Shown here in pieces: positions 31,069-33,998 of a DNA stretch of 64,000 nt. Source of the DNA: Natronococcus sp. CG52 (lineage in GTDB: Archaea > Halobacteriota > Halobacteria > Halobacteriales > Natrialbaceae); contig NZ_CP099391.1 of NCBI RefSeq assembly GCF_023913515.1, positions 2,046,001 through 2,110,000 on the forward strand, read 5' to 3'. The notes beneath the pieces were generated by a model. It was given only the letters and a program-made list of their open reading frames with translations. It was not told where the DNA came from and made no database searches. A program made the translations under genes and the position numbers. How positions within the stretch are numbered: the first letter of the stretch is position 1; each line of letters opens with the position of its first letter.

Positions 31069-32526
31069 GTGTCGTCGTCGGACCGACGAACCGGCGCCGC
31101 TGCATCCGTAACTATGAGATGGCCAGTGATCACAGCGGAGGGAGCGTCGATCCGTGACGCGATTGTTCGGATCGATCGATCGGAAGGGAAGGGTATCGTC
31201 GTCGTCGACGAGCAACGTCGACCCGTGAGAACCGTGACGAGCGACCGACTCAGGCGAGAACTGTACGAGGGCGCGACGCCGGCGACGCCGATTTCGTCTG
31301 TCGTCGACGACGCGCCCCCCGGACGAGCGGCGAGCGACAACCGCTCTCTCGACGTGGCGGCCGGTGGGCTCGAGACCGGAGCGACTGCCGCGCCCGATTC
31401 GGGATCGGACGCCGTCGAAACCGTTCTCGTGGTCGGCGGCGCCGGCTACGTCGGCTCGGTGCTCTGTCGAATCCTGCTCGAGGAGGGGTTCGCGGTTCGC
31501 GTTCTCGATCCGCTCATGTACGGCGACGCCGGCGTCGCAGAGCTCGCGGATCACGACCGGTTCACGCTCCACCGGGGTGACGCCCGGTCGCTCGAGACGG
31601 TGCTGGACGCGATCGAAGGAGTCGATGCCGTCGTCCACCTCGGCGGAATCGTCGGCGACCCGGCGACCGAACTCGATCCCCGAAAGACCCTCGAGTACAA
31701 CCTCCACTCGACGCGACTGCTCGCGTCCGTCTGCAAGTACCACCAGCTCAACCGGTTCGTATTCGCCTCGACCTGCAGCGTCTACGGAAAGAGCGAGAAC
31801 GCAGCCGGGCGACTGGCCGAAGACGACGAACTCAATCCGGTCTCGCTGTACGCGCGGATGAAGATCCAGTCCGAGCGACTGCTCCGCGATCTCGCGGACG
31901 AACAGTTCTCGCCGACGATCCTCCGCATGGCGACGGTCTACGGCTACTCGCCCCGGATGCGGTTCGATCTCGTCGGAAATATCCTTCCCGCGAAGGCCCA
32001 CGAGCAGGGTGTCATCCCCGTCTTCGGCGGCGACCAGTACCGGCCGAACGTTCACGTCGAAGACGCCGCGAGCACCTACGTCGACTGTCTGACCGCACCG
32101 CTCGAGGACGTCGCCGGCGAGGTGTTCAACGTCGGCTCGAACGAGCAGAACTACCGAATCGACGAACTCGCGACGGTCGTCGCGGACGCGTTCCCGGACG
32201 CCGAGATCGAGTATCACGAGGAGCAAACCGACGAGCGAAGCTACCGCGTCGAGTTCGAGAAGATCCGATCGGCCCTCGAGTTCGAACCCGAGCGGACCAT
32301 CCGCGATCACTGTCTCGAACTGAAGGTGGCGTTTGAGAGCGACGAGTTTCCGGCGCACACCTCGACCCGGTTCAGCAACTACGCGACGCTCGAGAGCGCC
32401 CCCTCCTTCGAGGAGACGGAGGCGGTGATCGACGAACACGAACCCCCTACGTTCGACGAACGGGACGAACGGACGCCCACTCCCGACGCGCGGAGTGACG
32501 GCAAGCAGTCGACCGGAATGCACTGA
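31069..32526 (+). CDS. CBS-like domain fused to NAD-dependent epimerase/dehydratase
   Basis: A 485-residue fusion. Residues 15-85 (RWPVITAEGASIRDAIVRID; GIVVVDEQRRPVRTVTSDRL) resemble a single CBS motif. After a linker, residues 118-430 form an extended SDR with Rossmann motif VVGGAGYVGS, catalytic FASTCSVYG and SLYARMKIQ (YxxxK). The C-terminal 55 residues are acidic, Pro/Thr-rich and probably disordered. The CBS-like part might bind a nucleotide and tune the enzyme. It follows the DegT aminotransferase, suggesting one sugar pathway. An alternative start is ATG 31114. Confidence 0.88.
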   Translation: MSSSDRRTGAAASVTMRWPVITAEGASIRDAIVRIDRSEGKGIVVVDEQRRPVRTVTSDRLRRELYEGATPATPISSVVDDAPPGRAASDNRSLDVAAGGLETGATAAPDSGSDAVETVLVVGGAGYVGSVLCRILLEEGFAVRVLDPLMYGDAGVAELADHDRFTLHRGDARSLETVLDAIEGVDAVVHLGGIVGDPATELDPRKTLEYNLHSTRLLASVCKYHQLNRFVFASTCSVYGKSENAAGRLAEDDELNPVSLYARMKIQSERLLRDLADEQFSPTILRMATVYGYSPRMRFDLVGNILPAKAHEQGVIPVFGGDQYRPNVHVEDAASTYVDCLTAPLEDVAGEVFNVGSNEQNYRIDELATVVADAFPDAEIEYHEEQTDERSYRVEFEKIRSALEFEPERTIRDHCLELKVAFESDEFPAHTSTRFSNYATLESAPSFEETEAVIDEHEPPTFDERDERTPTPDARSDGKQSTGMH

Positions 32527-32987
32527 TCCCGACGGGTTCGAACAGTAGCCGACGACCTCGAACGGCTCAGACCCGCTCGACGATCGTCGCGGCTGGTCCG
32601 CCCGTCCGACGACGGCGGTCCTTGGTTACCGCGGTTGGCTGACGGCTCCTCGTTCTCGTCGGTGTGTTTTGTCATCGATTCGCTTCCCGCCTCGCCGCGC
32701 GGATGGGTCGAAAAAGCGTCCGACACCGTTCTAACCGCTGGACCGGTTTTCCGGCTCGAGTGCGGAGTATTACTCGCCGACACACCGCCGGTGGTGGTCG
32801 ACGGTCCGTTTCGCCGTACCACCGCTCGAACTCCGGAAACACAGCCACTGACCGATCGGAACCGATCGGTCTCGGCGATGCGCCCGCTGCCCCTCGACGT
32901 CGCCGACGGAAATCCGTGCACTTAAACCTGTGCCCGCGAAATGAGTACTCGAACGATCACGTCGCTCCCGTAACCGACGCTGGTGTT
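32527..32987. other. Non-coding region upstream of 5S rRNA
   Basis: No protein-like frame; the open frames are short and of non-acidic composition. A TATA-like CTTAAAC at 32921-32927 could start 5S transcription about 90 bases before the mature RNA. Confidence 0.5.
32921..32927 (+). promoter_or_regulatory. Possible promoter of the 5S rRNA gene
   Basis: CTTAAAC, preceded by a purine-rich GGAAAT-like stretch that could serve as BRE, lies about 90 bases upstream of the 5S sequence. It would place the start site near 32950, before the tRNA-like element. Confidence 0.35.
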
Positions 32988-32990
32988 CAC

Positions 32991-33015
32991 GACGGTTCGA
33001 TTCCGTCGGTCGGCG
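32991..33015 (+). ncRNA. tRNA-like processing element upstream of 5S rRNA
   Basis: A perfect T-arm-like hairpin: stem GACGG/CCGTC (32991-32995 and 33003-33007) with the seven-base loop TTCGATT, followed by eight bases (GGTCGGCG) placed like a tRNA acceptor 3' strand, ending exactly where 5S begins. In Haloferax volcanii the 5S 5' end is reported to be cut by tRNase Z at a tRNA-like element, and this hairpin fits that role. No complete tRNA can be folded, since no 5' acceptor partner is found upstream. Confidence 0.6.
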
Positions 33016-33137
33016 TTACGGCGGCCACAGCGGCGGGGTTCCTCCCGTACCCATCCCGAACACGGAAGATAAGCCCGCCTGCGTTTCGGTCAGTACTGGA
33101 GTGCGCGAGCCTCTGGGAAATCCGATTCGCCGCCCCC
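33016..33137 (+). rRNA. 5S ribosomal RNA, isolated gene
   Basis: About 122 bases matching haloarchaeal 5S rRNA: 5' TTACGGCGGCC, then GTACCCATCCCGAACACGG, AGTACTGGAGTGCGCGAGCC, CTCTGGGAAATCC and 3' TTCGCCGCCCC, which pairs with the 5' end. No 16S or 23S sequence lies within the window on either side, so it is outside a normal rRNA operon. It may be an extra expressed copy or a relic; the intact stems and the tRNA-like element favour a functional gene. Confidence 0.93.
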
Positions 33138-33557
33138 ACTCATACTCCTATTTCGCGCACCTGCTGAGCGGCCGTACCGGCCCTCGAAGCGCCGGTGTCG
33201 TTTCGACGCTCGAGTGTCCTCTCGCGTAGCTGTCCGCCGGCCGAACGAACGACTTGAGAGGCGAGTCCGACTATCGGAACGAGCGACGAACGCGCTCTCC
33301 GGGAGCAGCGACGACGCTCTCGGTTTCCGTTCCGAGTTGGCAACCCCTGCAGAAGTGGTGGTGAGTAACTCGAGACGAGAACTCCCATCGGACTCGAGTA
33401 CCGATACGACAGCCACAGTATACTAACGAAACTATCCTGAAGTACGGATGGGCGGGGAATCGGTTCCGTACTGCGATCGGGTCCTCTACGCTGACTCTCC
33501 GTATACTTATCAACACCGAGAAACGTTATTGCCACTGCCGACCTACTAGGTGTTGGC
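33138..33557. other. Non-coding region downstream of 5S rRNA
   Basis: No supported gene. A TATA-like GTATACTTATC near 33501-33511 lies about 50 bases before the next coding start and may be its promoter. The rest has no recognisable signal. Confidence 0.45.
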
Positions 33558-33998
33558 ATGGCCGCACAAACACACACCACCGTCGAAGAGAACGAGCGAC
33601 TCTCCCGCCGGGTTCCGGAAGAGATCGCAACGGAGCGCAATCTCGAGTTGATCGACGAACTGTACGCCGCAGACGCCGTAGAACACCTTCCGATGGGGGA
33701 CACTCGAGGACTAGACGAGATCCGGGCGGACTTCGAGCGATTCCTCGAGGCGTTTCCGGACTTCTCGGCAACGGTCGAGGACAGCGTCGCCAGCGGGGAC
33801 ACCGTCGCGATGCGCGTCACGCTTCGGGGGACCCACGAGGGACCGTTTATGGGAATAGAACCGACGAACCGCACGTTCAAGGTATCGAACATGGTCTTCA
33901 CGCGCGTTCGAGACGGGAAGATCGTCGAACGATGGGTGCAGCCGGACATGCACGGGATGCTTCGGCAACTCGGCGTCGTCGAATCGCCGATCGCGTAG
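33558..33998 (+). CDS. SnoaL-like ester cyclase family protein
   Basis: A 146-residue protein with the cone-shaped SnoaL/NTF2-like fold: NLELIDELYAADAVEH, GLDEIRADFERFLEAFPDFSATVED, then VAMRVTLRGTHEGPFMGIEPTNRTF and IVERWVQPDMHGMLRQLGV. Such proteins cyclise polyketides or act on small aromatic or ester substrates; many have unknown substrates. Typical family length. No operon partner within 70 bases. Confidence 0.88.
   Translation: MAAQTHTTVEENERLSRRVPEEIATERNLELIDELYAADAVEHLPMGDTRGLDEIRADFERFLEAFPDFSATVEDSVASGDTVAMRVTLRGTHEGPFMGIEPTNRTFKVSNMVFTRVRDGKIVERWVQPDMHGMLRQLGVVESPIA

Follow-up and report, generated by a model that had tools for sequence, protein, structure and literature searches.

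The window, that is the whole stretch of 64,000 bases that was analysed, contains a 5S rRNA gene at 33016..33138 on the + strand. When all 64000 bases were scanned with cmscan, the family RF00001 matched at 33017-33138 (+) over model positions 1-120, with 88.2 bits (E 1.6e-17; the gathering score of RF00001 is 38 bits), and no other match in the window exceeded any gathering score. This full-length match agrees with the sequence-only reading, which had described the gene as complete-looking. Zero tRNA genes were found within the 64-kb window. The 5S gene occupies a gap of 1031 bp between an NAD-dependent epimerase gene (31069..32526, +; Pfam PF01370), used with its synteny as the marker of what we call site A, and the gene of a SnoaL-like protein (33558..33998, +; Pfam PF07366). 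The epimerase is 91% identical to that of Natronococcus pandeyae, the nearest named relative at this locus. Following the check proposed by the sequence-only reading, we counted the 5S and 23S genes of the whole genome (4.74 Mb, 3 contigs) and found four and three, respectively. Three of the four 5S genes lie about 120 bp 3' of a 23S gene, and the only exception is the gene of the window, which is separated by about 162 kb from the nearest 23S; the earlier statement that no 16S or 23S gene lies within tens of kb thus stands. That the site might be the edge of an rRNA operon rearranged or misjoined in the assembly is excluded, because the gene is in the interior of a 3.97-Mb contig and because two other genomes of the genus carry the gene at the same site. 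We also rejected the idea of an attachment site or a mobile element: the unit has no second piece within the window, where the best other match has 15 bases.

Directly before the 5S gene stands a tRNA-like element, or t-element (32974..33015, +), which reads CCGAC-GCTGGTGTTCA-CGACGG-TTCGATT-CCGTCG-GTCGG-CG. Its acceptor is formed by 32974-32978 with 33009-33013, its T-stem by 32990-32995 with 33003-33008, and its T-loop is 32996-33002. A T-arm and a pseudo-acceptor ending exactly at the 5S had been claimed from the sequence alone. Both are present and the element adjoins the 5S, but the acceptor helix stops two bases (CG) short of 33016, and the element begins, with the 5' strand of the acceptor at 32974, outside the limits first given to it. 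Taken alone, the T-arm GGTTCGATTCC is not above chance (4 found vs 3.06 expected in 64 kb, with at most one mismatch). Folding of the single sequence is no better than that of shuffles (z 0.16 and -0.26); in the lowest-energy fold of the precursor the T-stem forms while the acceptor strand pairs otherwise, and an alternative pairing of the acceptor is possible at site A. We accept the t-element as real because of its position before the 5S and because of covariation, not because of the frequency of the motif or of the folding energy.

The covariation was studied on 101 5S copies of the family, of which 68 stand first in an operon, 24 are the second of a tandem and 9 are unlinked; these are chosen loci and not every 5S of the family. 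A T-loop directly precedes the 5S in all 101 copies; the T-stem has six pairs in 96 of them, five in 3 and four in 2. The acceptor is fully paired with a CCGRN strand in 91 copies. Six of the ten exceptions are apparently misses of the search pattern only, the first of two overlapping CCGA having been taken, and four acceptors differ (G033 twice, G086, G124). We then kept the rows whose linker measures 9-11 nt and whose acceptor is paired, a selection which favours the acceptor but not the T-stem: 13 of the 101 rows were dropped and identical rows were merged. In the 60 distinct sequences left, 99.8% of the cells pair, and both partners vary in 7 of the 11 pairs. None of 500 shuffles is as good in pairing and covariation, and sliding the partner strand by 1-3 columns destroys the signal. 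Two first operon copies (L154 in G012 and L161 in G140) have a linker of 31-36 nt with an extra hairpin, and hence a more tRNA-like element.

In Haloferax volcanii, the t-element before the operon 5S is reported to be cut by tRNase Z (Hoelzle 2008, 2012; via PMC3296008, PMC7714728, PMC4326828), and, in agreement with the sequence-only reading, this cut is reported to make the 5' end of the 5S. The H. volcanii element, as the passages describe it, resembles that of the window: it has the same position, consists of a T-arm and an acceptor, and ends at the 5S start. Its published primer ACCGATATTGGTATGGCAACC (PMC4326828) is of the same sequence type, and begins with bases found in many operon copies of the family. 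The difference is that the H. volcanii element lies inside a 16S-23S-5S operon, whereas that of the window heads a separate 5S gene. According to the same source, a t-element also acts in H. volcanii cells when it is carried by an unrelated transcript from a plasmid, and it then releases a small RNA (PMC4326828).

We looked for the limits of the conserved unit in the three genomes which carry the same 5S behind the same epimerase gene (G000, the genome of the window, G001 and G008, the last being syntenic on the upstream side only). Counted on the genome of the window, the invariant bases number 12 of 48 in 32860-32907, 213 of 240 in 32908-33147 and 13 of 33 in 33148-33180. The invariant runs are 32916-32926, 32949-32965 and 32967-32985, followed by the t-element and the 5S proper. 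The first of these runs, 11 bases invariant in the three genomes, is a TATA-like promoter candidate, GTGCACTTAAA (32916..32926, +). The second is a block of 17 invariant bases, TCGAACGATCACGTCGC (32949..32965, +). On the 3' side the unit is closed by the conserved flank CTCATACTC (33139..33147, +), past which conservation falls; YTCAT is found 3' of all nine unlinked 5S copies listed. The motif CTTAAA occurs once on the + strand and never on the - strand of the 64 kb. The box at site A has no clear BRE. TATA-like sequences are also present at site B and in G126, two further places described below, while no clear promoter was found before the unlinked 5S of G029. A likeness to the promoters of rRNA operons was considered and dropped: CGAACGA is shared by the unit and by the motif at the rRNA start in the operons of this genome, and with 47 occurrences on both strands of the window it is too common to count. 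The promoter pattern TTAT...TGCGAACG is found at two of the three rRNA operons of the genome; the operon at 2241-2247 kb (L122), unlike the other two, lacks it within 900 bp of its 16S.

These features suggest how the gene could be expressed. Transcription is predicted to start at about 32950, 26 nt past the TATA-like box and in the first bases of the second invariant run. RNA polymerase would then produce a short pre-5S RNA made of about 24 leader bases and of the t-element, a mini-tRNA reduced to its acceptor and T-arm, in front of the 5S. By analogy with what is reported in H. volcanii, tRNase Z would cut past the t-element and set the 5' end of the 5S at about 33016. The product would enter the common 5S pool of the cell, in which there are more 5S than 23S genes, and may be used in ribosomes. 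One could suppose instead that the gene is transcribed only by read-through from the epimerase gene, since the 5S lies on the same strand 490 bp past its stop and since a t-element would act in any transcript, excising the 5S from the mRNA. We find this improbable, as the 390 bp from the gene to the box are mostly poorly conserved whereas the box and the next block are invariant. We therefore favour the gene having its own start.

Site A is not occupied throughout the genus. In five congeneric genomes (G002, G003, G004, G005 and G007) the epimerase gene is found without 5S in the fetched flank, and in G006 no match to the epimerase was found. Hence, the site-A 5S is dispensable in the genus. 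These empty sites could also be expected if the gene were a silent relic, left by an rRNA operon that had been duplicated or lost, and had yet to decay. We nevertheless hold a relic to be unlikely: between species the flanks have diverged, yet the unit itself has hardly changed. The operons might, through gene conversion, clean the body of a silent 5S, but not a distinct leader and an upstream box, and the leaders at site A differ by 7-15 from their own operon copies.

In order to see how widespread such genes are, we used a 23S tail plus 5S as a query against 48 near-complete genomes of the family. Unlinked 5S genes are present in 9 of them, at three sites: site A in G000 and G008 (G001, a draft genome, is a tenth unlinked case), site B in G075, G076, G079 and G035, which are syntenic and belong to one genus, and site C in G031, G126 and G029, which are syntenic and belong to three genera. 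From site to site, the similarity between the unlinked copies is confined to the t-element and 5S. In 22 of the 48 genomes a tandem second 5S directly follows an operon 5S (for instance L106 in G007), and these second copies carry their own t-element. The remaining 17 genomes have neither kind and none has both; if the two kinds were independent, such an exclusion would have a probability of 0.0019, a figure uncorrected for relatedness. Among other families of the order, no unlinked 5S was found in 8 near-complete genomes. We also considered plasmids as carriers of unlinked 5S genes, with the same query, and rejected them: among the matches listed (60 of 139 records), the 24 haloarchaeal records with at least 80% of the query covered at one place are operon copies. 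Many haloarchaeal plasmids (NZ_CP044526.1, NZ_CP031309.1 and others, one of only 63 kb) do hold a 23S end and a 5S, which is consistent with plasmid-borne rRNA operons.

The origin of one unlinked copy can be read directly. At site C of G029 (L103, G029:C1:572500-576000), about 200 bases before the 5S align to the end of a 23S gene with a score of 191, when shuffles reach at most 29 (0 of 300 as high), although Rfam does not recognise this tail as LSU rRNA. In coordinates of the turned locus, the homology with the flank of G031 stops at base 1547, and the start of the 23S piece lies at about 1570. Behind this decayed tail, the t-element and the 5S are intact; CCGGT pairs with ACCGG in the t-element, by a compensated change. 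This means that the G029 copy arose from a 23S-end/5S fragment, of which the 23S part decays while the t-element and the 5S persist. We infer that the copy at site A arose likewise, a piece of rRNA operon (23S end, spacer, t-element and 5S) having landed elsewhere, its 23S part having decayed and its t-element and 5S having been kept. The decayed tail of G029 is what the origin of a relic would look like, but the window site has no detected 23S remnant (score 21, with 46 of 300 shuffles as high). The tail is likewise absent at the other unlinked copies, the nine without it scoring 17-26; G008 is marginal, with 26 against at most 25 for shuffles, and is the only one to exceed its shuffles. In a tree built on the t-element and 5S (102 rows), the unlinked copies group by site, with 3 label changes vs 9.7 for shuffled labels. 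A single shared origin of all ten is neither shown nor rejected (p-AU 0.093).

The 5S bodies differ from the operon 5S of their own genome at 0-3 positions for site A, 3-14 for site B and 15-22 for site C (G029 left aside). Out of 34 pairs, the non-standard ones number 2-6 in unlinked copies (n=9), 4-8 in tandem second copies (n=24) and 4-7 in first operon copies (n=54 distinct); the 5S of the window has 5. Helix I is longer than in operon copies in four unlinked copies (G031, G035, G075 and G126), and the unlinked 5S of G031 and G035 reach 103 bits vs 82.7-92.8 for their operon copies. With so few non-standard pairs and a longer helix I in four of them, the unlinked copies are not decaying; that they retain the pairing of both 5S and t-element again speaks against silent relics. 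The site-C copies, by their divergence and longer helix I, might evoke a specialised 5S variant, made for particular conditions and defining a distinct class of ribosomes. For the gene of the window we regard this as very improbable: it has only 2 or 3 differences from the operon copies of its genome, and its two helix differences from one operon copy occur in another. We dropped a reading of a U-A for A-U near helix IV as a compensatory change specific to the orphan, because these bases are also carried by another of the genome's operon copies.

Taken together, the limits of conservation, the 5S bodies, which are homogenised or compensated, and the covarying t-elements indirectly support the expression of the orphan 5S. 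We consider it likely that the gene of the window is a fourth, functional 5S gene which acts as its own small transcription unit. Given its own processing tag, its candidate promoter and the split-off genes of its relatives, it is probably a spare part in working order rather than a fossil.

One copy is an exception to the proposed mechanism. In G075, a near-perfect hairpin of 72 nt (L116:5082-5153, -; -41.7 kcal/mol) sits between the t-element and the 5S, and therefore a direct cut at the t-element would miss the 5S end there. This insert was considered as a multicopy element and rejected as such: it is present in a single copy, with short partial matches only in 3 of 7 other genomes.

Unlinked 5S genes are known in archaea, namely in Crenarchaeota, Thermoplasma and Methanocaldococcus jannaschii (PMC8339473, PMC8997704, PMC3608112). 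Like them, the 5S of the window would be transcribed apart from the 23S. They however serve operons which have no 5S, whereas in our genome every operon has its own and the gene of the window is an extra; moreover the passages on them mention no t-element. The rrnD operon of E. coli has a second 5S (PMC11883441), and there, as in the tandem cases of the family and in the genome of the window, 5S genes outnumber 23S genes; those tandem copies are in the operon and presumably on its promoter, while our gene is outside. A stand-alone 5S is also described in Desulfallas gibsoniae (PMC7812874). It resembles ours in being displaced and in having acquired control elements, but it is a bacterial and single case, for which the passage describes no t-element. 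A related design is the icrRNA expression cassette (PMC4326828, PMC4946936), where a promoter, t-element and small RNA are functional in cells outside any rRNA operon, although it is engineered, has two t-elements and carries crRNA as its cargo. In a literature search that covered few subscription papers, no listed title concerned a haloarchaeal 5S standing alone with a t-element, which is weak evidence of novelty. Pei and colleagues reportedly treated the diversity of 5S among prokaryotic genomes with partial operons, which is probably relevant here. The t-element and the unlinked 5S are each known; their combination as a conserved spare copy in haloarchaea appears to be new.

More tentatively, the t-element and the 5S could form a self-sufficient cassette, able to leave the operon because its own 5'-end maker is aboard. 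Having departed as a 23S-end/5S fragment, it would acquire a promoter and persist under independent regulation, as may have happened at some three sites in the family, and would be an alternative to tandem duplication. The divergence from the operon 5S, of up to 22 bases in some genera, would then imply two kinds of large subunits per cell.

The unit of the window would thus be a natural counterpart of a hand-built design, with a t-element setting the 5' end of a small RNA outside the rRNA operon. In eukaryotes and in several lineages of archaea the 5S has become uncoupled from the rRNA operon, and the site-C series, where G029 has a decayed tail and G031 and G126 have none left, offers a concrete route to this. 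Finally, the diverged unlinked copies make the heterogeneity of 5S within one cell testable by ordinary RNA-seq.
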